A DNA stretch of 64,000 nt from Polytrichum commune (Eukaryota; Streptophyta; Polytrichopsida; Polytrichales; Polytrichaceae), in the NCBI GenBank assembly GCA_950295325.1, contig OX485803.1:27094001-27158000 (forward strand), in the 5' to 3' direction. The notes below the pieces were generated by a model, which did not search any database, was not told where the DNA came from, and worked only from the letters and a program-made list of their open reading frames with translations. The first letter of the stretch is position 1; the number at the start of each line of letters is the position of its first letter. Below are positions 7,087 through 61,775 of the stretch, piece by piece. The translations under genes and the position numbers were made by a program.

Positions 7087-7840
7087 TAAGGTAGATGTTC
7101 CTTATTCGGTTACTTACCTCAAGATAGATAGAAAGATAGATAGAAACTCCGGTCCCTTTTTAGCAAGGGGCCGGCGTGAATAAAGTGTCCGTTCGTAATG
7201 CCAATGACCCGATGCCCACTGGACAAGGGGACATTGGGACAATACTACTCTCCCCTTTCGAGGATGGACACTAAAGTGACACACTATACTAGTTCCTAGC
7301 TAGCCACTAGTGCCTTGAAGATACCGGACATGGTATCCCCCCAAAGGGCTTTGAGGTACCCATACAACAAGGTCCAAGGACCCCCACCATAGTTGGGTGG
7401 ACTAAGGTGGTGAGCACCACGCCGGCATGGGGAATAGAACCCACAACCTCCTCATTGGGGGTCATGAGCCCTAACCACCAAGCCAAGGCCCGTGGTGCCT
7501 TTACTTACCTCAATTGGATACCGGTACCTATATCCGAGTGGTATGTGTTAAGAAAAGATGAGACTACATGCTCAAATATGACAACCATTATAGGTTTTAT
7601 AGTTAACATGATATTGGGGGGGGGGGAGGGAACCATGGACCTTAATGACCATTTAATGAGCAAATGAATCTTCACTTTGATCATCAACAAGATGTTCATA
7701 CGAGTTTCAAATATTTTGAGAATGATGGCTACAGCCTCGATTCAAATTTGTTGACTATCTCGTACTAATCGCATGTTTCATATCCTAGTAGAAGTGGGTT
7801 AGTAAGGGAAAAAAAACCATTTAAGACCCATGTACCTTAG
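7087..7840 (+). repeat. Family R repeat, copy 2, split by a SINE
   Basis: Begins TAAGGTAGAT and ends TGTACCTTAG, so the termini are inverted relative to each other. The left arm runs to 7122. After the SINE insert the element continues at 7514 with TTGGATACC, then the usual GAGTGGTATGTG block, ATGCTCAAATATGACAACC, and TGAATCTTCACTTTGATC. The copy at 20321 shows the undivided arrangement. Confidence 0.8.
7123..7500 (-). mobile_element. tRNA-derived SINE with 13-bp target duplication
   Basis: On the minus strand the element starts at 7500. It carries an RNA polymerase III box A-like TGGCTTGGTGG (7485-7475) and a box B-like GGTTCTATTCC (7441-7431) at tRNA-like spacing. A tRNA-unrelated body follows, then a TCTA-type tail ending at 7123. 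The 13-bp TTACTTACCTCAA occurs directly on both sides (7110-7122 and 7501-7513) and is perfect, which indicates target-primed insertion and fairly recent arrival. SINEs are non-coding and depend on a LINE. No second copy was noticed in the window. Confidence 0.88.
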
Positions 7841-12362: not shown

Positions 12363-13288
12363 GTCGATGTGTGTTAGGGCCGCTTCACACTATGGCTGTC
12401 CAAGTCGAGAGGTCGTGGGATTGACTGGCCAAACTTTGTTGACAGTCCAAACAAATGGGCTGAATATACATAGCCAATAAAATATAGGAATTGGAGCCTT
12501 CAGCCATGCATACTGTGAAGCTTCCAAAGGCCAAGCACATAGTCCAAACCCATACCTAAGGAAGAAGGAGCACCCCATTTTATTCCCTGCCCAAAACAAC
12601 CCCTCCAATCTAAAAGCCAAGATCTTGTCATTTTGATTTTTTTGATTTTTGATTTTGATTTTATTTTTATGATTGAAAAAAAATCGACGGTCTCTCGACC
12701 ATAGTTTGGATTTCCACTCCTGTCCGACCCAAACTTCCTTCGAGAGTCCTTCGCCTTAGTCAAAAAGTATTGTCATGTAGGCATTTTGGAGAGCGATGAG
12801 CTTTAGACTTTGGCCTCTAGTGTGAAGGGTCGAGAGGCCGAATTCTTTGGTTTCTTGCAATATGATTGGTGGAAATCGACAACCTCTCGACCTTCGGCTA
12901 TAGTGTGAAGCGGCCCTTATTAGGATATTTTTCTCTCTATGCACCCACTTCTCAAAGGATATGAACATGCAATTAGTGCAATATGATTAGCAAATCCAAA
13001 TCCTACCCGTAGCCATTTGCCTCGTAATTTTTGGAGCTAATATGAATATCTTACTCATTGTCAAGGTGAATTTTTGTGTGCTCGTTAAGTGGTCATATAG
13101 ATCCCCTCCCCAATCATGTTGACTATTGAGCTTAGAATGGTCAACATATTTGGGGCAAGTCCAGTTTGGTTTTTTTAACAAACAAAATTCTTTTGTGCTG
13201 TCCAATTTGAGATCCATGCCCAACCACATACCACTCAAATATAGGTATCCAAATTATGGTTGTGTTCGATGTAGGCACGTTGACCTTA
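12363..13288 (-). repeat. Family R repeat, copy 3, split by a MITE
   Basis: The right part (12920-13288) carries the GGATATTTTTCTCTC start, TAATTTTTGGAGC and GGTCATATAGATCCCC blocks, and an end reading TTGACCTTAA. The start, GATGTGTGTTA, lies left of the MITE at 12377. Copy 5 (22438) has these two parts joined. Confidence 0.75.
12377..12916. mobile_element. MITE, GGGCC superfamily (copy H), 540 bp
   Basis: Long TIRs of about 45 bp begin GGGCCGCTTCACACTAT at both ends, followed by CGAGAGGT. TTA flanks both sides (12374-12376 and 12917-12919). A third copy of the arm-like motif (TCTCGACCATAG) lies inside near 12695. Interior T-rich GATTTT runs surround 12640. No coding capacity. Confidence 0.88.
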
Positions 13289-14032
13289 AGTAAGTTGAAG
13301 GTGGACACATTGGGAACTACTTGTACTTATTCTTGGAACAGTTGGTTTTAGCGTATTTGATCCCAAAATAAGCATCAAAGAATTTGAATTCGTCTATTGA
13401 CATTAAGTTTGGATAAATCAACATGTCAATGATACTCTTTATAAATAGTCATAGCAATGTGTAACTCCAAATGGTAACCCACACTAATAGGACTATGTAG
13501 ATACTCTCCATTTATGAGCTTTCACGCTCGAGTCCAATGTAGAGTTCAATTTGGAATTTTTTTTTGAAGGTTTGCAATAGATGCTAGCAAAACATGTGCA
13601 CTAAGAATGTTTTCTAGTGTGTATCCCATTGGTATATGAATTAATCCAACACTCTTGAAGTAGAATGCATTTAGGATCGGTTCATGTGGCATAATGAAAT
13701 GAAATTGATTTCGAAGTTTGGGAAGCCAAAAAGGCTCATGAAGTGAAAAATAGTGTCAAATCTCATGTACTCATCCAACATGTCCACAATGGGGATGTGG
13801 ATGTGATTGTGGATGTGATTGTGGATGTGATTGTGGAGGTCATTAATTTAAACAAGTTCCACCCATTTTTGGGTCCATGTTTATGGGGTACTCTAAAGGG
13901 ACATGTCCCACCCATCTATTTCTTGATCCCACCATGTACATAGGCATTGGAACCATAATCGATTCTTTATGTATCCCTCTATTTTTCTAAGAAAAATGGA
14001 TGGTTTGATGGGTACATGAGATTTGATCCTTA
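13289..14032. other. Spacer with a 12-bp minisatellite
   Basis: No gene seen. Three tandem GGATGTGATTGT units lie at about 13799-13834. They give a short Asp-Val-Ile repeat in one frame, which is not evidence of a protein. Confidence 0.6.
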
Positions 14033-14485
14033 GGGCCAATTCACACACGAGACTGAGAGCCCGTGACCATTACCCTTCAAGCACTCTCATTGGTGGAAAA
14101 GGCGGAGCCGATCCAAGTATATAAGCTTCACACTACGCTTGAGGGACCAATGGAGTATATAAGTAAATGCAAGATGGATGTAAAGTCTACATGGACTCCT
14201 ACATGTCATCAAATGGATTTTCAAAAACCATGAGACCATGGCACTCCGAATGCTCGCAGTTGTTGGTTTTTTATTTCATCATGTGTGAGGACCCACATGA
14301 ATAAAAAAATTCCTTGAAATAGCATTTGGTTGAGGTCCCCATCACATATGACTTCAACACTACACTTGAGGGTTCGTGACCACACTACATGATTTTGGAG
14401 GTGTCTTGGGATGGCCTTTGGACACTTTCTTTTGGGCTCTCACAATTTCATGCTCATGGCTCTTGGCTCGTGTGTGAAGTGGCCC
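14033..14485. mobile_element. MITE, GGGCC superfamily (copy D), 453 bp
   Basis: Ends GGGCCAATTCACACACGAG and the inverse of GGGCCACTTCACACACGAG. Flanked by TTA at 14030-14032 and 14486-14488. The subterminal GAGAGCC is also inverted. Non-coding. It abuts copy E, which starts at 14489. Confidence 0.87.
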
Positions 14486-14488
14486 TTA

Positions 14489-15174
14489 GGGCTGGTTTAC
14501 ACTATGGACCAATAAGCCGTCCCAAGGCGCTGTAAGAGCACTAATTGGTTGCAGAACTTGTCCCGGGACCATTTCGGTTTACACTAAGAAAAAAATGGCA
14601 AAGTGATAATGAAGGTCGAGGTCCCCAAAAGACATATTTTAAAGCTTGATTAATACACTGACATGGTCCAATGGGTTTTGCGGTGAGAGAGGCGCGAGAG
14701 GTGGTATGAGCCCAAAATGAGTGCTCATATTTGTTTTATGTTTAGAACCTACTTAGAATTGCATTTGAAGTGTGTTAAAAAAATCAAAAGTATAAAAAGA
14801 ATGAGGATTGGTGTGGATTTATGTTTAGGCCTAAAGCCATTTTGTGTGGTGAATTAGAAGCTTAGTGACATTAGGGAGTGTTTTGATTAGAGGAGTAGTG
14901 CTTGATGAGGCAAGGGGAAGTGCCTTTGATTTAAATGTTTGAATTAGAACATGTTCTTGTCGGTTTAGGGGGTGAGGGTTTACATAGCACATTCACTTTT
15001 TGGTGCATGGTCATTCTTCTTGGTCCACATTCGGTTTACATCTAGTGAGGGGCCCAAGACTTTCAAAACTAATGATTTAAGAAGTCGGACCATGAAAGTT
15101 AGACCATAAACTCGGATCATTGAAAAAGGCCCTCTTTATGGTCCGACTTCATGGTCCATAGTGTAAAGTGGCCC
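14489..15174. mobile_element. MITE, GGGCC superfamily (copy E), 686 bp
   Basis: Ends GGGCTGGTTTACACTATGG and the inverse of GGGCCACTTTACACTATGG. TTA lies on both sides (14486-14488, shared with copy D, and 15175-15177). The interior shows no long reading frame. Parts of it (GAGCCCAAAATGA and downstream) weakly resemble 23600-23860. Confidence 0.85.
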
Positions 15175-20320: not shown

Positions 20321-20690
20321 TAAGGTAGACCTACCTTTGGGTTACTTATCTTAATTAGACACCTATATTTGAATGGTGTGTGATTTCATGTGGCTCCAAG
20401 AACGGTTACCAAACATATATGTGTTTGAAAGAGATTGGACTACATGCAAAAAGTATGATAAACATTCTAAGTTCAAAAGCCAACATATTGGGGGAACCTA
20501 CATGACCACCATAATCTTCACTTTGAAAATTTACTAAGATATTCATATGAGCTCCGATCATTATGAGGGAAGTGACTATGGCCTCAATTTGGAATTGCTA
20601 ACTATCTTGTACTAATTGGTGTTTCTTATTCTAGGAGAAGTTGGCTAGTCAAGAAAAGTAACCATTTAAAACCCATCCAATCTTGAGGCA
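20321..20690 (+). repeat. Family R repeat, copy 4
   Basis: Begins TAAGGTAGACCTACC. It has the GAATGGTGTGTGATT, GAAAGAGATTGGACTACATG, TAATCTTCACTTTG and CTAACTATCTTGTACTAATT blocks in the order used here as the reference orientation. It appears uninterrupted. Confidence 0.8.
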
Positions 20691-22437: not shown

Positions 22438-22740
22438 TAAGGTAGACATGTGTTAATGGGATATTTTTCTCTCTACACCCAATTCTTGTAGGATATGACA
22501 TGCAAATAGTGCAAGATAATTACCAAATCCAAATTGTTTATGCAATCATTTGCATCATAATTTTTGGAGCTCATATTTATATCTTATTCATGATCAAAAT
22601 GGTCATATAGTCCCCCCTCAATCATGTTGATTATTAAGCTTAAAATGGTTAGCATATTTTGAGCATGTAATCCAATCTCTTTGAAACACATTTCTTTTTA
22701 AATGTCCATTATTTATGTCATCTTCCCAACATCTTCCTAC
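22438..22740 (-). repeat. Family R repeat, copy 5
   Basis: Starts TAAGGTAGACATGTGTTA then GGGATATTTTTCTCTC. It continues with the CATAATTTTTGGAGCTC and GGTCATATAGTCCCCCCTC blocks and ends near AATCCAATCTCTTTGAAAC. It preserves the uninterrupted junction that copy 3 has lost to a MITE. Confidence 0.78.
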
Positions 22741-25299: not shown

Positions 25300-28200
25300 T
25301 GATTTTGGGGCGTGCATTTTCCAACCTTGGGTGCTAGCTTTCAATCATGGCAACCCAATTGGCCTTCAATTACCAATGTGGATCACAATTAAAAGGTTGC
25401 GTTTGGAGTACTTACTCACTACTCACATTGTCGTTAAGCAAGTGGGATTGGTATTGGACAATGACATTTTGCATGTTGTTATGAAGAATCCATGTTTTGC
25501 GTGGCTGTGAATGTCAAGAATGGTTGGAATTCCAAGGTCAGGCTTTGTCCCACTACCCCCAAGATAGCTAGTTAATGTTTTGGTGCATTATGACACATTA
25601 CCGAACCATTGTTGGTTCACCTTTGCAACAAATCATATGGTTGTGGACTCTATGGAATTAGGAGGTAGGAAGTATGGCAATCAAGGCAGCTTGCTTTCAC
25701 CCAAATATAATTAAGCTCCCCGAACAAAAGGAGATTCACAGGAAGGATCACTCAACATCACGATTCATAATACTAGGGGTGAGCAAGCTCTACCTAAGGC
25801 TCAACTTAAGATGGGTAGGCAGAAAGATCCTAATTCATGCAACACTGCACCAATTCATGTTAATCCACCAAATCTTTTGGATAATCCAAAAGAGATCCTC
25901 GAACTTATAACCTTTGATTGTGGATGATAAGGTGTTTACCCTTTTTGGAGCAAGAACAAACTCAAATCCAAGGTGCCAAATTAAGGAGGTACAAGAGCCT
26001 ATTAGTCTGCAGCCTATTCATCCTAAGTTTGGCCAATGGGGAGCCCAATTCATACATTGCATGTGAACTCAAAGATGTCCTTGGCCTTCTCTGAGCAAGG
26101 CAAAAACATTCCCGGAAAGGCTATTGGGTTACATGAATCTTATGGTGTGGTAGAAGTGATCACATTGCAGACCTCCATGTCCCCTAAATCTCCCAACAAC
26201 CCCAAGTGGAACACCCTAGACTTGATAGAGGATGAGCAAGGAAATGCACTTATGAAACGGTCTGCTTGCAAGATATTAAGGAAGGAATAGCATGCAATTG
26301 AAGCCAGTAGGAGCATTGGGAATGGAGCTGGCAGCTTCCTTTCAAGACTCGGAATTGTGCCTCTTGAACTTTTCCACTCATATATGGCCTTGGCCGCCAC
26401 TAGATACACAAATGCTCTTGATGATGACCGTGTTTCTTATTGCATACCAGAAACTTAAAGCCAACAATCTTTAGTAAAATAATATGGGGAAGTCATTACT
26501 ATTTGCCAACCTTCAATCTTTCACACATATAACTCACCCTCTCCGGATTCCTATGGCCTCTCGATGGACTTAGTTGGTGCTTCACAAAGGATTGGATCAA
26601 GGTTTGCGTCCTTAATGAAAGACATTGGGTTAGAAGTTGACAATGAAGGTGTAATCTATGTTGATGCTCTAGATTAGAGACCAACTCTTCCTCACATGTT
26701 CAAAATGATCACTGGAAGAATACCCTCTCTTTGTACAACTCCATTTCTTTGAGTGTGTGATGGCTACCCCGGCTCAAGAACATGGCAAGGAGAACGGTGT
26801 GCAAGGGATTAAGTTAAATGCGCAGTGGTGAGCCCATCATAAAGGAGAGGTGGATCTCATTTTTAACCTTTGGAATGAATTTAGTGGGGTTTTTTCAAGT
26901 GACACGGATGAACAAAGCCCAGGTAACCTCCTCCAATTTCCGCACCCTCCTTCGTGAATCTCACACTTTTATCCTACAATACGAGGCATAAACAATGCCA
27001 AAAAAAATTGGGACCATTCAGGACTACCTTCATAGTCTCACCCCAAGAGTTGATATTTGGTGCATACCAATGCATAAGTTGAGAGGGGATAATGTGGATA
27101 GACTCTCAAAGATGTTAAGAAGGAATGAATGTTTTTGGGCCCTAGAGGTAAGTCTAAATAATGATAAGGTAGACATAAGGTTTGGAGTGGGCCACAGAGA
27201 AGTGGCCGTGTGCTTCCATCCGAAGCTTCGGCCACATATCATGATAAGGGTTCATTGCTGAAAATAGGGTTCACTGGATTAGGTTCACTAGTTTGGAAGG
27301 GGGTACATGGGAGTCCTTAATGTTTAGTCGTTCAATTTTATGCGTGAGAGGTGTGCAAACATGCTATGTGGGAAGACATCCTCATCTCCTTCCCTTGGAT
27401 TGTCGTTGATTTTTGCAAGGGATTTTAATATGGTAGAAAGTGTTTTCGATAGGCCCTTCACATCATGCAATCGTTTAATGAGATTGCGAGAGAAATTGGT
27501 ACGATCTCAAGTCAAAAATGAGTTTGGGTTGGAAGACCTCTTCATTAGAGACTTTAATCATGTATTCTCATGGGATAATAACCTCTGAGAGGATGGATTT
27601 CATATTCTTGCGAAACTGGAGAGAATTTTTGCCACATGCTCGGTTCAACCTCCCTCGGCTCATGTTGTTCACTGCAAAATCATGAGGTATTTAAATTCTT
27701 TAACCACAATCCAATGTCCTTACATATTAATCTAAGTAGAAACAAGCATGGAGGTTATACATGGAAAGTCAATACTAGGTACTTATAAGAAGTCAACTCT
27801 AAGGTTGTGAAAATTTGGTCTCAATAATCTCCAACTACTCCTTTATTTGCAAAGGTGTGCAAAATCGTTCGCTTTTATCGTCAATTTTGTCTTGCAAAAG
27901 CTACCAAAAATAGGATGGAAGAAAATATGATATGGGAGTTCTTAGAAACTCAATAGGTTAGACTCCATTTGGATTTCCTCAATAACACAATATTCAGTAT
28001 TTTGAGAAAGTGGGATCCTCTCAAAATAATATTGGCCATTTGGACACCTAAAAGTCATGTTGGGTTGATAAATATTAGATTATACTTCAGACGTGTAGTT
28101 TTCATTAAAATGAGAGTATGTTAAGCTAGGAAATCGACTCATTTAGGTTGAGTCGACTCAAATGAGGACAATATTTTGTCAATTTAGGTTGAGTCAACCT

Positions 28201-29457
28201 ATATGAGGACAATTATGTTAGTCAATTTAGGTTGAGTCGACCTAAATGGGGACAATATGTTAGTCAATTTAGGTTGAGTCGACCTAAATGAGGACAATAT
28301 GTTAGTCAATTTAGGTTGAGTCGACCTAAATGAGTCGATTTCCCAACTTAACATACTCTCATTTTAATGGAAACTACGGAAAATTTACGGCGGAAAATCA
28401 AATGTTATTTTTTTACTTGTACTCTACAACTTTCCAGTGGTTTTCATTTCATTCTTGGATTAATAGTTTGCTTTATGTACTCTCAATTCACTGGAAAACT
28501 CTCATTTTAATGAATATTGTGTTCAATGAGGAATGTCAAAAGAAGGTCAAGACTCTAAAGGAGTATTTGTGCATGCTTCATGGATAAGAAAAAAGAGGAT
28601 GGGAGATGCATATGTTCATGGACCAAATGGATGCAGACCGGGATCGTACAAAGAAATATTTTTTCTCCATAGTTTGTGAGCGACCAACAAGAGAACTCAT
28701 CATTGAGTTTGCTAATGAGGATGACGAAGTGGTGTCATCAAGGGAGGAGTTGGCTCGGGTGTGTAACTCTCTCTACTCAAAACTCTATGCGGAGCTAGTA
28801 TTGGGGCTGAATTGTCATATTTTCTTTGTTGATATTCTTCATCATGTTCTGCATAAATACTCAAGAGAGTTCACCTACTCCTGAAAATGCCTATCATTTA
28901 GGAGGAGCTCATTGTTGCGGTGATGGTGCTTGCCAAGGGGAAGACTCATGGCCTAGATGGCTCACCGTGAAATTTGTAGAGCATATTGGAATATTTCTTT
29001 GCAAGGTTTTTTGCACTATGGTTGATGAATCCTTGTTCAAAGGTTTTTTCTCCCATAAAGGCAGATAGGGCTAATGTTGCTACCTTGGTTTGGATTGTTA
29101 AGCAATTTCAAAGCGCATCATGTTTGGAGGTAATTGGACCAAGAGTGTGGCTTACCTAGTGCAGACGAGGAGATGCTCCGGCATGATTGACAACATACCA
29201 GTGGAAGTGGGCAACAACTAACAACCTCTATAGACTTTTGGGCACGCCTTTTGGCTAAATATGGCATCCAAGATATTGATAATCTTCTAGTTGATTGGAT
29301 GAAAGGGAAACTCAAACATTGAGCATGTACTCACCTCTCTTTAGTTGGGCGTACTCTCATTGTGAATCACATGCTCATGTCCTCCTTGTGGTACTCAATT
29401 ACGGTTCATGCAAGCTCGAAAAAGATGTTGTGCAAAATCAAGGCCTTACTATGTAAT
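25300..29457 (+). pseudogene. L1-type LINE retrotransposon, decayed
   Basis: Plus-strand fragments follow the order of an L1-like element. An ORF1-like region (about 25400-26950) precedes an endonuclease. The latter shows NVDRLSKMLRRNECFWALEV (27091-27150), GVGHREVAVCFHPKL, the ARDFNMVES motif (GDFN in active enzymes, near 27420), GLEDLFIRD..FSWDN, and HNPMSLHI near 27700. The reverse transcriptase begins with VMVLAKGKTHGLDGSPVKF (about 28922-28980). The catalytic palm (YADD) is missing. The sequence jumps by about 29240 to the post-RT region, where LVGRTLIVNHMLMSSLWYS lies around 29345-29400. Frameshifts and stops are numerous, and a fold-back insert occupies 28101-28514. It cannot be functional. 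The left boundary is uncertain, and the right end is cut by an LTR-like segment. Confidence 0.75.
28101..28514. mobile_element. Fold-back element with five 42-bp repeats
   Basis: The 16-bp TTCATTAAAATGAGAG at 28101-28116 recurs inverted and perfect at 28499-28514, and again inverted with one change at 28356-28371. Between the first and the middle copy lie about five tandem units of about 42 bp (about 28137-28345). Each carries TTTAGGTTGAGTCGACCTAA, a near-palindrome centred on GTCGAC. The outermost 40 bp of this inner block are also mutually inverted, so the whole can fold into a long hairpin. It sits in the linker between endonuclease and RT of the LINE, so it is an insert. No coding capacity. 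It is not a CRISPR array: there are no unique spacers. Confidence 0.75.
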
Positions 29458-35599: not shown

Positions 35600-41181
<5,582 letters not shown>

Positions 41182-42029: not shown

Positions 42030-42586
42030 ACATAGCAATAATTTGGATACATGTATCGAGTGGTGTGTGGTTGAATGTCGATCTAATAAGAAGGGATACC
42101 AAGAAAACATCACGTGTTTAAAAGATATTGGACTACGTGCTTGTGATATGGTAACCATTGTAAGTTTCACAGTGAACATGAATTGGTTGAGGGGGTGGGG
42201 GGAGGATGGTAAATGAGGTGGTCTGGTGGTATTGGTTTGAATAAATAGATTTGAGTGGTGTGTGGTTAGGTGGGGATCTAAGAACGGACACCAAAAAAAG
42301 GCATCACGTGTTTGAAAGAGATTGGACTACGTGCTCGTAATATTTTAACCATTGTAGTAGGCCTAATAGTGATTATAATTGAGGGAGCTAGCTTATATGA
42401 CCTTAAACAATCACAAGAATCTTCTCTTCACTTTGATGGTGAATAGGATATTCACATGATATTCAAAATTAAGAAGAAAATGGCTACGCGCACAAATTGG
42501 ATTTGTCAATCATTTGACATTGATTGCGTGTTTCATATCCTATGAGCCGATGAGAAAAATTGTATGAATAACACAGGTCTACCTTA
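42030..42586 (+). repeat. Family R repeats, copies 6a and 6b in tandem
   Basis: Two same-orientation copies. The first (about 42030-42235) has GAGTGGTGTGTGGTTG, then CACGTGTTTAAAAGATATTGG and ACTACGTGCTTG. The second (about 42245-42586) repeats the same blocks and continues to the full end, AGGTCTACCTTA. The first is truncated after the GGGGTGGGGGGAGG stretch. Confidence 0.78.
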
Positions 42587-42649
42587 TTTGAGCGTGCTCG
42601 CAAGTGAGGGTGGGGGTTGGTTCATTGAACCAAGCAGCCCTAAAATGGG

Positions 42650-43005
42650 CAATCCTCACTTCTCCTAAGATATGAAGCATTGCATTATTGACAAATGATT
42701 AGCAAATTGAGGTTCTAGTCATTCTCCTCATAATTTTCAGAGCTCGTACCAACACCTTGTTCACTACCAGAGTAAACAAATATCCTCTTATGAAATGGTC
42801 ACGTGGGGATTTCCTTATTATAGTGACTCTTGAGCCTGGAATATTGATTGAACACTTTGAGCACAAAGTCCAATCTCTTTTGAACACATGAGGCCAGTTT
42901 TGGTGTCCATTCTTAGACCCACACATCACCACACGCCACTCGAATATAGATGTTTAGCTGAAAGTATGTTTCCGAAATAGGTCCTTTTTACCTTATATTA
43001 GATTT
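42650..43005 (-). repeat. Family R repeat, copy 7
   Basis: Inverted relative to the preceding pair. CTTCTCCTAAGATATGAAG start, CATAATTTTCAGAGCTCG, GAAATGGTCACGTGGGG and CAAAGTCCAATCTC blocks, and an end reading TTTTTACCTTA. Confidence 0.75.
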
Positions 43006-43888
43006 GTAGAAATTGCGTTAGCCTTTTTACATGACTATGAGGGCATAAAGATTTTTTTTGTTCAAGATGTTTTGTAAAATAGAAATTCCAATGAGATTTT
43101 TCTTAAGAACTATTACAAAAGAGAAGTTACGAGACTCCAACAACGGATCACTTTCTTGTGGATAAAAGTACAAAACAAACAAATTGGTCCTCCTATAACG
43201 AATTTTAAGAAGTACAAATGCTTTAAGAGTTCACCGTGTCCCAAATCTCGTTATTTTGAGAAGAAACGTGATGTGATTGGTATGAAATGGTGGAATGTTG
43301 CAAGCATGTATGTGAACTCTGATTGATTCAATTTTGAGAGTGTCTTTTTGAGATGTGAGCACTTCATGAGGCATAGAGGATCATCATGCATGCAATTTCA
43401 TGGTCGAGGTTTGGGAAGTGACGAACAATTTACATTGGTTACATGTGGGGCAAAAACACATGGAACGAAAACATGTCCAAATTTTACTTAATTACCAACA
43501 ATGTTCAAGGGACTTTTAAGTTACGGACAAAAATATCATCATATGTATACATGACTTTGGGGATTTACATAAGCCATGATCCCCAAATGTAAAAGGCTTA
43601 TTCATCCCAACTTAATCAAAATATGCTATAAAACCATCCAAGCTATAAGGGGTTCCCAATGCTTTCACCTTCAAACTACATGGGTACAACAAACCCGAAC
43701 CAAATCATAGGCTTCATGAATTATACTCGCGAAGCACTTTAAGAAATGAGAAGACACATTGGGATATAGAGAAGGAGCAGTAAAAGGCGGGAACAATCTC
43801 TCCTTGCCATTTTTAAAACCATGTTATTCTACGTGCTCTTCTTTGTCATTGAGGAATGAGCAAGTGGACAAGGGTTTGCTTCTTCTAA
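43006..43888. other. Spacer, no gene seen
   Basis: AT-rich, with no recognisable structure. Confidence 0.55.
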
Positions 43889-44279
43889 GGGCCAGTTTAG
43901 GCTACAGTGAAGAAGTGCACTGGTCGGTCAAAATTTCCAACCCAAGACATGCTTATTTGAGGCAATGGTTGGTATGACAAAATGATGGGAAAACATTCAA
44001 AATATATTAAAAAAAACCTCGAGTTGAAATTCTCTAGAGGCCAAGTTTCTTGTCCAAGGGTTTAAGGTTGCCCAAGAAACTTCGCCTCCCATAGCAAAAA
44101 GTGTTGCCATGTTGGTAGCCATGTCATTTGTTTATCCATGCTTGAAGTTCTCCACTGGAAAAGTCTTGGTTGTATTGTAATCACAAGCAGGTGAAGAACC
44201 CCTTGCATAGTTGATATATTGCTCCATTCCCCTAAAATTCTTGACTGGTACACTTCTTCACCATAGTCTCAACTGGCCG
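43889..44279. mobile_element. MITE, GGGCC family (copy B), 391 bp
   Basis: Left end GGGCCAGTTTAGGCTACAGT; right end is the inverse of CGGCCAGTTGAGACTATGGT. The arms continue GAAGAAGTG on both sides. TAA flanks both ends (43886-43888 and 44280-44282). The interior follows copy A almost throughout (GGTCGGTCAAAAT, CCCAAGACATG, TTATTTGAGGCAA, GCCATGTCATTTG), so A and B are one subfamily. Confidence 0.86.
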
Positions 44280-44282
44280 TAA

Positions 44283-45110
44283 GTTAGTGCCTTCTCTTAA
44301 TGGCCTACATCCACGGGGAGGCTTGAATTTTTGCATGTAAACTAACTATTCTTTGGGAATGATGAAGGGATCGATCCATCTATACGATAAAGGCCATCTC
44401 CCAAGAGCATTCCACATGTAAGACACTAAATGGACTCCCAATTGCTTATATTTACATGAAATCTCTTCATGGCATGGCCTAACACAACACATCAAGTCAA
44501 TCATTCATGTAAGTTGAAGGTGAATACATCGGAACCCATTGTAACTTTGAGGTTTTTATTCTTCGCAATTTCAATCCCAAAAGTAGCATTAAAAACCCCA
44601 AATTAGTGTAGTGAGGTCAAGTTGGGCCAAATCGGGGTTGAATCCGCTACAAACTTCTAGGGGGTTATGTTTCTATGAGTGGCACTCGACATGATATGCA
44701 CATCATGCCCATCGTATGGATGGTAGCTTAATTTTCTTTTCTTTTCTCTTATTTTCTTGAGCACATGAATTTGTCATGGATGACTTACTTGGATGCATGA
44801 ACTTTTGGTGGATGGATGGATGGATGGATGGTGGCCCTAAGTCACATATAAGTTGTATTATTTTCCTCCACTTTCAAGCATCGTATGTACAAATGGCAAG
44901 TTCATGAATTGTGTATACACATACAACAATGGCTTGTAGCTTCACGATGTTCACATATACACATCCACTTTGAAGGGAGAAAAAAACACAATAAATCTAT
45001 TTGTTGTGTACGAATATTGATTACATGGAAATGGCATCAAAGAGCCCTAATTACTATGTCGGATCCCAGTTGGAATGAATTTGATCCTCAACTATGAGAG
45101 CCTTGTTTTT
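44283..45110. other. Spacer, no gene seen
   Basis: A GGAT run lies at 44812-44832. No coding signal. Confidence 0.55.
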
Positions 45111-47300: not shown

Positions 47301-47690
47301 ACGTGGTAGATGGGTCTTAGATGGTTGCTTTTTTCCATCTAGCCTACTTCTCATTGGTCATCGAAAACACGAACATTTAGTACAAGATGGTTAACAACTA
47401 TAATCCGAAGCCGCACCAACTTTCCTCATAATTTTTGGAGCTCGTATGAATATCTTGATCGTCGTCAAAGTGAAGATTTTTGTGCTTATTAAATGGTCAT
47501 ATAGGTACCCCCTCCCGACATCAATTATCGAGTCTATTGTAGAATAGTTGATAAAAATGTTGAGCACGTAATCTGATTTCTTCTAAACATTTTGTTTATC
47601 TTTGTGGTATTTGTTATTGGATTCACACTTGCTCACACATTACTCCAGTATAGGCGTTTGATTGAGAGAAGTAACCGAAGTAGACATGGC
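47301..47690 (-). repeat. Family R repeat, copy 8
   Basis: GGTAGATGGGTCTTAGATGG start, CTCATAATTTTTGGAGCTCG, AAATGGTCATATAGGTACCC and GAGCACGTAATCTG blocks, and an end near GTAACCGAAGTAGAC. Confidence 0.75.
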
Positions 47691-50147: not shown

Positions 50148-50345
50148 GAGACATAAAGCGACCAAATGGGACCTTCCATCCCAATCCCCCCAAGAATGAT
50201 GTTGACTATCGAGCTTATAATAAAATACAAATTATAAACACGTAGTCCAATCTCCTTTAAACTTGTGTCTATTTGGTATCCATTCTTAGCTCCACATCTA
50301 GCCACACACCACTCAATATATAAGTGTACGATTAAGTTGAGACAA
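50148..50345 (-). repeat. Family R repeat, copy 9 (partial)
   Basis: ATGATGTTGACTATCGAGCT, CACGTAGTCCAATCTCC and CCACACACCACTCAATATA blocks in R order; about half of the unit. Confidence 0.7.
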
Positions 50346-59429: not shown

Positions 59430-60574
59430 GGTGCCCGTTCTAAGGTTTGGGGGGGGGGGGGTTCTATCGGGTGGGTCTATGGGGCCTTGTTTATTATCTA
59501 GTTTATGTTTGTTTAATGGCTATTTGATGTTGTTTCATGAGTTACTTTATCTCATTTGAGGGCATTTTGAGGTTTTTTAGTTCTTGTATTGAGCGTTCGT
59601 GAATGGCTCCTCTTATTGTAGCAATGATTGTCGTAAGAGAGTTGATTTGCCAATGTGTAGTTCTAAGAGTTTGTATTAGTCGGTGGTATTTATCTTGTTG
59701 TTTGGGTTGCATTATTTAGGAATATGTCATTGCAATAGGTGAATTTGATAAATTGTGTTGTGGTTAGTGGGGAGGCCATGAGTGAGGGTTGGCTATCATT
59801 GGGGGCATCGAGTACGCATAGGATGTCTGGTCGCAATCAGGCTAGATGTGTGCACGGGGCAATGGTGCATGTGCATCGGAGTAGCCATTCAAGGACCGTA
59901 TTGGCTTGCGGTTCATAGTGATGATTTCTTGCACTAATAAGGGTGTAGTATTTGGTATGTTTATGGGATTGGAGTGTGTGTGCAATTTGGTGGACTGCTT
60001 TGTTCAATCACATTATGCAGACACCTCTGGTGTGCGGATCTGAGCATGTAGATAGCAGGTGTGGCCATGTGTCAACCATGTTATTTGGGCATAGTGTGCA
60101 ATTTGGTTTTGAATGTGTGGTAGGCCAAAATATGTTTTTTTCTTTTTGGTTGCTCATGTACAAAGAATATCAAAACTTGAGTAGTTGTGCAACTGGTGCA
60201 TCATAAATATCATGGGTTTTCCATTAGTGGTTTGCAAGTTAGGGTTAACGTGGTCATTTGAGACCCATTTGTCAACGTAGGCACCTTTGTTGACTGCTAG
60301 TGCAAGTTTAGTTTTGTGATGAATTGTATTGATGGAAGCATGTAGGTTGCATATTTTTTCCGTAGCGTTCTCCTGTTGGTACTCCATTTAGCCAATGAGG
60401 TGTGTTGTGTGCAATGTGGATGCGTGGTGTGGGAGTAGGTTAAGCTAGGGTGGTTATGTCATAGGCTACTTGGTCGGCCATTTCATTTCCTATTATGCTA
60501 GTGTGTGCTTGGATTTTTTGGATCATTATTTTGTGGGAGGACCATTGAGTTTGATTGACTATGGCTGACATTAA

Positions 60575-61569
60575 GGGCCGGTTTACACTACGGTGGAGAA
60601 GGCCTCCGGTCGGTCAAGAATGCTTAGCCAAGACATGGTTATATGAGGCAAATGGTGGATGTGCCGGAGAAGAATTAAAGGCAATAAAATATTTCGTAAG
60701 GAGTCTTGACCGGTTGAAGTCTAAACACCTAGAGGAGAAGTTTAGCGGAGAAGTCCACCGGAGAAGTCCACCGGTGAAGAGAAGTTCACCTAATGGTGAA
60801 GATTTTTTGTGATAAAAAACCATTATTCTCTACATTCACATTGTATCAAAAGATTTTAACAAGAATTGTATTCATAAGAATTGTGTAATATAATGTTCAA
60901 TTTTATTCAAAAGATAATGAAAATTGCCAAATTGCCAATTGTCAAGTTTGGCCCATGTAGGAAATAAATGTCTCCTTGGGTGTTTAAGAATGAAGAGGGG
61001 AAAACCCATACACATTGGACAAAGCACTACTCTTTGGTATTATTTAAGACATGCTCTCCTCTTAATCATCCTCATCAATTTCTTTCTTCTTATCTTTGAT
61101 CTTCAATCATGGATAATCGAAGAAGAGATATTTTGTGCTCTCTTATGATCTTTATGGTTTTGAAGTAACCAGCCATTGCAAAAAAAAATTGCACAAAAAA
61201 AAATTGCTAAGGAGCTACTACAACAAAGAGAGAGAGAAGCTTGCCAACACCTTAGGTTTTGAAAAAAACCAGATCTGAAATCTACGCTCCAGATCTGTTT
61301 TTGAAAATTAAATTTTTATTGAGTTGGGCTTCTCCAGAGGAGGAGTTTCTTGTCCGGCCTCTTGAGGCCGGAGAAGCCCAACTCCAAAAAGTGCCGCCAT
61401 GTAGGCGGCCATGTCATTTTATCATCCATGAGAAAAGTTCACCACCATTGTTTTCTTCACCTAGTGTAAACACCCACCGGTCAAGAGTTGCATTTTCGAC
61501 CAATCACAATTGAGAAACACCCTTTTTTTCATGACCGGTGGACTTCTCCACCATAGTGTAAACCGGCCC
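60575..61569. mobile_element. Long MITE, GGGCC family (copy C), 995 bp
   Basis: Both ends read GGGCCGGTTTACACTA inward, and the arms match for about 30 bp with two changes. TAA flanks both sides (60572-60574 and 61570-61572). The subterminal regions match copies A and B. About 600 bp of extra interior is present. An internal palindrome, GTTGGGCTTCTCC ... GGAGAAGCCCAAC, surrounds 61324-61382. No transposase frame is visible, so it is a long non-autonomous form. It interrupts the RNase H region of the LINE. Confidence 0.9.
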
Positions 61570-61775
61570 TAAGTATTTATCAAGTTGGTGGCGTTGATAT
61601 GGTGGGTGGCGTTTATGATTGTTTATTGAGTATATGTTGTTAAGACAATATGTGACCACCATCCCACCAAATACAATAGAATACAACCCAACCTTGTTAT
61701 GTCCAAAGCAATGATATATGAGTGGAAGAGTGGGATTTCTGCAACCCATTTGTTGGTGTTGTGTGTGTGTGTGTT

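Follow-up and report, generated by a model that had tools for sequence, protein, structure and literature searches.

Foldback-type transposons are characterized by long inverted repeats that fold on each other, by tandem sub-repeats within those inverted repeats, and by the occurrence of several dispersed copies that have their ends in common. Among the closest described systems is MuTAnT, a Mutator-like foldback MITE of Medicago truncatula, whose 292 bp are reported to comprise 144-bp near-identical inverted repeats and four similar segments (PMC4486113). The same account describes 218 related elements, nearly all of them residing in (TA)n microsatellites, and indicates 9-nt duplications for the remaining 14. 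Tandem repeats in the arms have been described both for Tetris of Drosophila, a foldback element in which they seem to be derived partly from the element's own arm (PMC4079207), and for Tm1 of root-knot nematodes, a foldback element in which the number of repeats varies (PMC3169594); duplications of 8-10 bp are reported for both. FARE of Arabidopsis is also named among the foldback elements in PMC4486113 and PMC3169594. Finally, Stowaway MITEs are described as mariner-related, short, palindromic elements with the end consensus CTCCCTCCRT (PMC1925063).

The present locus, a 283-bp hairpin lying within a 64-kb window (the whole stretch of Polytrichum commune DNA that was analysed; Table 1), shares features with MuTAnT, with Tetris and Tm1, and with the Stowaway MITEs. 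Its size (283 versus 292 bp) and its layout as an end-to-end hairpin of repeated modules resemble those described for MuTAnT, and this match in size and layout favours a MITE as the origin of the hairpin. Unlike MuTAnT, the hairpin carries no 9-bp duplication at its ends, does not lie in a TA array, and is present as one full copy in the window. Like Tetris and Tm1, it combines long inverted repeats with internal tandem repeats, but whereas the repeats of those elements lie within each arm and are set apart by a separate middle, the array here has no separate arms and runs, as one self-complementary series, through the centre. Like Stowaway MITEs, it is short and palindromic with TA at its ends (a feature that is uninformative here), but the Tc1/mariner (Stowaway) terminal consensus is absent, the ends reading GTTTTCATTAAAA after the TA, and no tandem array is mentioned for Stowaways in the account of them used here (PMC1925063). 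The locus is probably one decayed, moderately old, non-autonomous foldback-type DNA transposon (MITE) residing in decayed LINE-like sequence. Structurally, such elements are well known, and a single copy offers no grounds for erecting a new category.

Table 1. Features of the hairpin and its immediate surroundings (positions within the 64-kb window).
Feature	Position	Strand	Remarks
Left side of a possible outer inverted repeat (LINE-like sequence)	27975-28007	+	Partner 28500-28533
Whole self-complementary (hairpin) element	28095-28377	.	283 bp; self reverse-complement alignment
Left outer arm, outside the repeat array	28095-28140	+	46 nt; 43/46 matches with the reverse-complemented right arm
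TA at left hairpin end, possible 2-bp target duplication	28096-28097	+	Matched by TA at 28375-28376
Tandem array of quasi-palindromic 42-bp units	28141-28334	+	4.6 copies; Tandem Repeats Finder score 330
Unit cores 1-5	Starts 28141, 28182, 28225, 28267, 28309	+	Core alignment
Right outer arm	28332-28377	-	46 nt; part of the 69-nt inverted repeat
Degraded further arm-end copy, outside the hairpin	28471-28497	-	21/27 identical to the right arm
Third arm-end copy, outside the hairpin	28498-28514	-	17 nt, no mismatch with the left end; inverted repeat 100%
Possible outer inverted repeat, right side, overlapping the third arm-end copy	28500-28533	-	Alignment

The first-pass annotation of this DNA had recognized a fold-back structure bounded by inverse copies of a 16-bp end motif, and had placed its termini at 28101 and 28514. 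The fold-back structure itself was borne out. Positions 28095-28377 align end to end with their own reverse complement at a score of 245, against a maximum of 36 among dinucleotide shuffles (n=200), and the best 283-bp stretch off this locus reached a self-complementarity score of 51 (3186 stretches, taken every 20 bases across the 64-kb window). The inverted-repeat arms (28095-28163 and 28309-28377) are 69 nt long with 88% identity, and all three differences between their outer 46 nt, beyond the array, are transitions. In silico folding, which had been proposed as a check, gave -82.6 kcal/mol for the hairpin as single-stranded DNA, with 10 bases of flank included at either end; z was -16.55, and none of 100 shuffles was as stable. 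The hairpin is therefore real and striking, its long inverted repeats fold on each other in the manner of a foldback-type transposon, and the end-to-end palindrome and its fold favour a MITE. The three differences in 46, all of them transitions, suggest separate ageing of the two arms, which would be expected of an old insertion but not of a read-chimera artefact; in suiting an old insertion, they too weigh on the side of a MITE.

The proposed extent fared less well. The end motif spans 17 bp (28101-28117) and not 16, its perfect inverse copy occupies 28498-28514, and the near-identical inverse copy that had been placed at 28356 is present at 28355-28371 with one mismatch. Overlooked, however, was that this motif belongs to longer arms and that 28095-28377 constitutes one palindrome: in the extended-arm alignment, complementarity starts at 28095 and stops at 28377. 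The hairpin thus ends at approximately 28095 and 28377, leaving the 28498-28514 copy outside of it, and the termini 28101/28514 were dropped on these grounds and because 7-10 bp duplications at the third copy did not rise above the control.

A fold of this kind could also have been kept for a function of its own, with a LINE-like transcript forming long double-stranded RNA that gives rise to small RNAs. The transcribed strand would indeed fold strongly (-218.8 kcal/mol, z -16.7, for the RNA of 27965-28545), and plant miRNAs derived from MITEs have been published. The differences between the arms are nevertheless simple transitions that show no compensatory pattern, and the window yielded no Rfam match at the gathering score, such that a hairpin RNA locus appears very improbable.

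The interior of the hairpin had been described as about five tandem 42-bp units, in agreement with the array found here, in which matches between units amount to 92% and unit spacing is 41, 43, 42, and 42. Each unit is made up of a 23-bp core and a spacer of 18-20 bp, and core and spacer each align imperfectly with their own reverse complement (core, 18/21). The motif that had been ascribed to every unit, GTCGAC inside TTTAGGT..ACCTAAA, is present in cores 3, 4, and 5 (three of the five), but core 1 ends in GACTCAAAT and core 2 has GTCAACCTATAT. Likewise, the close similarity claimed for the units applies to units 3-5, which are nearly identical (their cores are the same, and units 3 and 4 show 1 difference in 42), but not to units 1 and 2, which are 5 substitutions and 2 gap positions apart. 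Core 1 departs from cores 3-5 at a pair of neighbouring positions, and core 2 likewise departs from them at two. Cores 1, 3, 4, and 5 correspond, with no mismatch, to the perfect 28-bp palindrome ATTTAGGTTGAGTCGACTCAACCTAAAT less 5 bases, and core 2 does so with one mismatch more, this palindrome being a construct derived from the core and not a string read in the sequence. Deletions within a palindromic unit may explain the core pattern, as would a few substitutions (two in the case of core 1).

The similarity of the units had been attributed to a young insertion or to ongoing homogenization. Neither is borne out by a comparison of the arms (3/46 differences) with units 3-4 (1/42), which do not differ significantly in this respect (Fisher p = 0.62). 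Slippage turnover among units 3-5 is plausible and is made likely by the 5 substitutions and 2 gap positions that separate units 1 and 2, but nothing points to a recent insertion. The sequence ATGAG...TATGTTA is common to the unit spacer and the arm, and since 20 of 1000 shuffled pairs align equally well, this likeness weakly suggests that the unit may have descended from the arm. The precedent of Tetris, with tandem repeats drawn partly from its own arm, is a further point in favour of a MITE, although the corresponding likeness between spacer and arm is weak here.

Target duplications had also been proposed as a check, and none of 7-10 bp was found at the hairpin ends. Within 12 bases on either side of these ends, no exact 7-mer occupied the position of a target duplication, nor did any 8- or 9-mer with at most 1 mismatch or any 9- or 10-mer with at most 2 mismatches. 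By the same criteria, no 7-10 bp target duplication accompanies the outer inverted repeat (27975-28007/28500-28533), and at the third arm-end copy none was above control (two 9-mers with 2 mismatches, versus a control mean of 1.26). The hairpin ends therefore show neither the 8-10 bp duplications of Tetris and Tm1 nor the 8-10 bp target-site duplication of a Mutator-like (MULE) foldback element. The insertion into a LINE put forward in the first-pass annotation is plausible as such, but no target-site duplication of 7-10 bp marks it where the hairpin ends. The TA found at both ends is uninformative, because TA is self-complementary and any palindrome containing it will automatically carry it twice; a TA target of the Tc1/mariner-like kind is allowed for the hairpin. 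PIF/Harbinger (Tourist-like) MITEs, for their part, have a 3-bp TTA/TAA duplication and GGGCC-like ends. Ends of this type are absent from the hairpin, and no TTA/TAA direct repeat occurs at symmetrically placed boundaries (28080-28114, each with its partner). Membership in a named transposase superfamily is not established.

Several shorter or misplaced repeats were considered as target duplications and rejected. The flanks contain five exact direct repeats of at least 7 bases, the longest of which is the 9-mer GTTTTCATT (28098-28106/28440-28448); the other four, AATATTG among them, measure 7 bp each. The left copy of GTTTTCATT is inside the arm, and the pair would bracket 28107-28439, thereby cutting off the outer arm and leaving no terminal inverted repeat (the duplication control for 7-10 bp repeats covered the hairpin ends, the third arm-end copy, and the outer inverted repeat). 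This 9-mer repeats the arm end and does not represent a target site; it belongs to a direct-orientation match (28437-28448, 11/12) to the outermost 12 nt of the arm, which is at chance level in that 89 of 2520 real stretches are as good. AATATTG (28028-28034/28513-28519) was set aside because the flanks, compared in direct orientation, align little better than chance (34 of 1000 shuffles do as well) and their best alignment lies elsewhere. TCATT at the boundaries 28107/28501 was discarded as one among many candidate pairs, and TTAA (28109/28363) as a self-complementary word within the arms.

Target duplications are detectable in this window where they are present, as is seen in four other miniature elements with GGGCC ends (1053-1450, 14028-14490, 43885-44283, and 60574-61570), each of which has identical TTA or TAA adjoining both ends (4/4). 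The assessment covers five of nine rows of inverted-repeat stretches, the fifth row being the right arm of one of these elements. The lack of a 7-10 bp duplication at the hairpin ends, as compared with the 3-bp duplications in all four of these elements, speaks against a MITE, as does the single full copy within the 64-kb window. The other MITEs themselves, however, count in its favour, and their presence suggests past mobility of miniature elements in this genome.

Both the absent target-site duplication and the single full copy would be expected of a non-mobile palindrome made in place, in which a fork or repair template switch at short inverted repeats in LINE-like sequence would have been followed by inverse copying and then by slippage expansion. 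The slippage instability of palindromes that such an origin calls upon has been described (PMC1925063). A local donor is not seen, however, as the arms and units have only weak matches of 20-26 nt (E 0.08 and 0.28) in the rest of the window, and arms and array together are compact and within the usual size range of MITEs. An origin in place is thus rather unlikely, if still deserving of serious consideration, and an inserted MITE is preferred.

To the right of the hairpin, the degraded arm-end copy (28471-28497) and the perfect 17-mer (28498-28514) adjoin one another, and both are inverse. Real stretches scoring as well as the perfect copy numbered 0 of 2512 under one scoring and 3 of 2512 under two others. 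For the degraded copy, three scorings gave 3, 7, and 5 equally good shuffles per 1000 and 0, 6, and 1 equally good real stretches of 2520, the first of these scorings aligning just 20 nt (28478-28497). On sequence grounds, the pieces at 28471-28514 could be the remains of a neighbouring second element that has been mostly lost, or they could be the scars of rearrangement. Degraded and perfect copies of its own arm ends adjoining the hairpin are in keeping with a MITE, and the same stray inverse pieces, together with the direct one at 28440-28448, may be the leftovers of template switching in a palindrome formed in place. Because they are compatible with either origin, they leave the balance between the two unchanged.

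Farther out, the inverted repeat 27975-28007/28500-28533 reached a score matched in 0/1000 and 1/1000 shuffles (two runs), yet the window itself offers 30 equally good placements among 1916 real ones, and an outer inverted repeat around the hairpin is suggestive only. To the extent that it is genuine, it would agree with template switching in place, for which its frequency among real placements is in turn a weakness. It would also agree with a larger nested element of approximately 560 bp (27975-28533), having a 34-bp inverted repeat as its outer ends and the 283-bp hairpin as either its middle or a second insertion, and the extra arm-end copies would then lie inside this element or at its right end. 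Set against these points are the same 30 of 1916 placements, the apparent reading of both outer arms as LINE-like coding sequence, and ends that are without a target duplication, which together render a nested element quite improbable. It should be noted that one simple insertion of a MITE leaves unexplained the end copies at 28471-28514, the 9-bp repeat at 28440-28448, and the possible outer inverted repeat.

No second full copy of the hairpin is present in the 64-kb window, where only the end fragments beside the hairpin were found. An exact scan with the 22-bp unit core returned 0 occurrences in viral contigs and 0 in prokaryote genome contigs, and blastn at E 1e-5 returned nothing in plasmids or phages, all of these being collections in which a plant element is not expected. 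An 18-mer of the arm that occurs in 9 viral stretches was dismissed as a chance match of an AT-rich word, since a 601-bp query gave only matches of 14-21 nt in these 9 stretches. In literature text, the 12-mer GTCGACCTAAAT produced matches that concern unrelated subjects, as judged by title; sequences are seldom printed in such text, and this result has little bearing on novelty.

As for how an inserted MITE may have come to its present form, a gene-less element would presumably have been moved in trans by a transposase recognizing its ends. Following insertion, the centre would have expanded and turned over through replication slippage or unequal exchange between palindromic units, and the inserted element would then have decayed. 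Such turnover of the centre would leave units 3-5 near-identical and units 1-2 not. It is tempting, though doubtful, to suggest that the hairpin represents a family of foldback MITEs with a self-complementary minisatellite centre, in which length changes by whole units without loss of the hairpin. Members of such a family would vary freely in length while their foldability stays constant, as every 42-bp unit is palindromic in its own right and may derive from the arm. Further copies that differ in unit number, should there be any, would provide a natural series for how MITEs seed minisatellites, a link between the two that has been argued from Tetris of Drosophila (PMC4079207). As it stands, the locus is a single old hairpin that most likely arose by insertion, and it matters little.

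The sequence around the hairpin has been degraded by stops and frame shifts. Its translations include stretches resembling the final part of a LINE-type endonuclease and the linker that precedes the reverse transcriptase. Apparent LINE-like coding signals lie on both sides of the hairpin, and their position is one more reason to favour an inserted MITE. No Pfam LINE or reverse-transcriptase profile matched any of six long frames at E 0.001, nor any of nine shorter frames at E 10, where only two unrelated matches far below cut-offs were obtained. The LINE host proposed in the first-pass annotation thus fits the translated flanks but lacks a profile match, and the LINE identity of the flanks is putative. 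One weak, 33-residue viral-contig match to the LINE-like sequence was also observed and was not used. Approximately 9 kb away, on the minus strand, is a protein kinase frame (37427-37813; Pfam Pkinase, E 3.5e-23). Two further frames, 35952-36302 and 40516-41181, are without a Pfam match and presumably represent additional parts of the same kinase gene. Together with the MITE content, the kinase is suggestive of a plant genome. The best solved-structure match of the 37427-37813 frame is calcium-dependent protein kinase 3.

Four GGGCC-ended miniature elements lie elsewhere in the window, and all four carry an identical TTA or TAA at both flanks; we take them to look like PIF/Harbinger (Tourist-like) MITEs. 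Beside the self-complementary hairpin, TTTCCAGTG reads in the sequence as the inverse copy of CACTGGAAA, and the two pair with each other in the predicted RNA fold; they are perhaps the termini of a small element since lost.

Two sets of interspersed repeats also occur within the window, the first matching its three partners at 72-75% identity and the second its own at 76-87%, these latter matches being partial. Because two partners of the second overlap partners of the first, the two sets may constitute a single family. The long inverted repeat has sequence in common with 50239-50320.

A Pfam search returned no match for the frames neighbouring the kinase-domain exon, although these frames resemble parts of the gene to which the exon belongs; the exon itself is closest to calcium-dependent protein kinases.

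Further features of the window
Feature	Position	Strand	Details
GGGCC-ended miniature elements (n=4)	1053-1450; 14028-14490; 43885-44283; 60574-61570		
Inverse pair adjoining hairpin	within 28425-28500		TTTCCAGTG (28430s) / CACTGGAAA (28490s)
Interspersed repeat, ~200 bp	7638-7840		partners 1932-2139, 20513-20676, 47305-47500
Interspersed repeat	12917-13151		partners 20517-20641, 22453-22659, 42427-42546, 47421-47523
Long inverted repeat	42246-42948		arms: 51-nt at 84%, 43-nt at 81%
Kinase-domain exon	37427-37813	minus	perhaps part of 35952-41181
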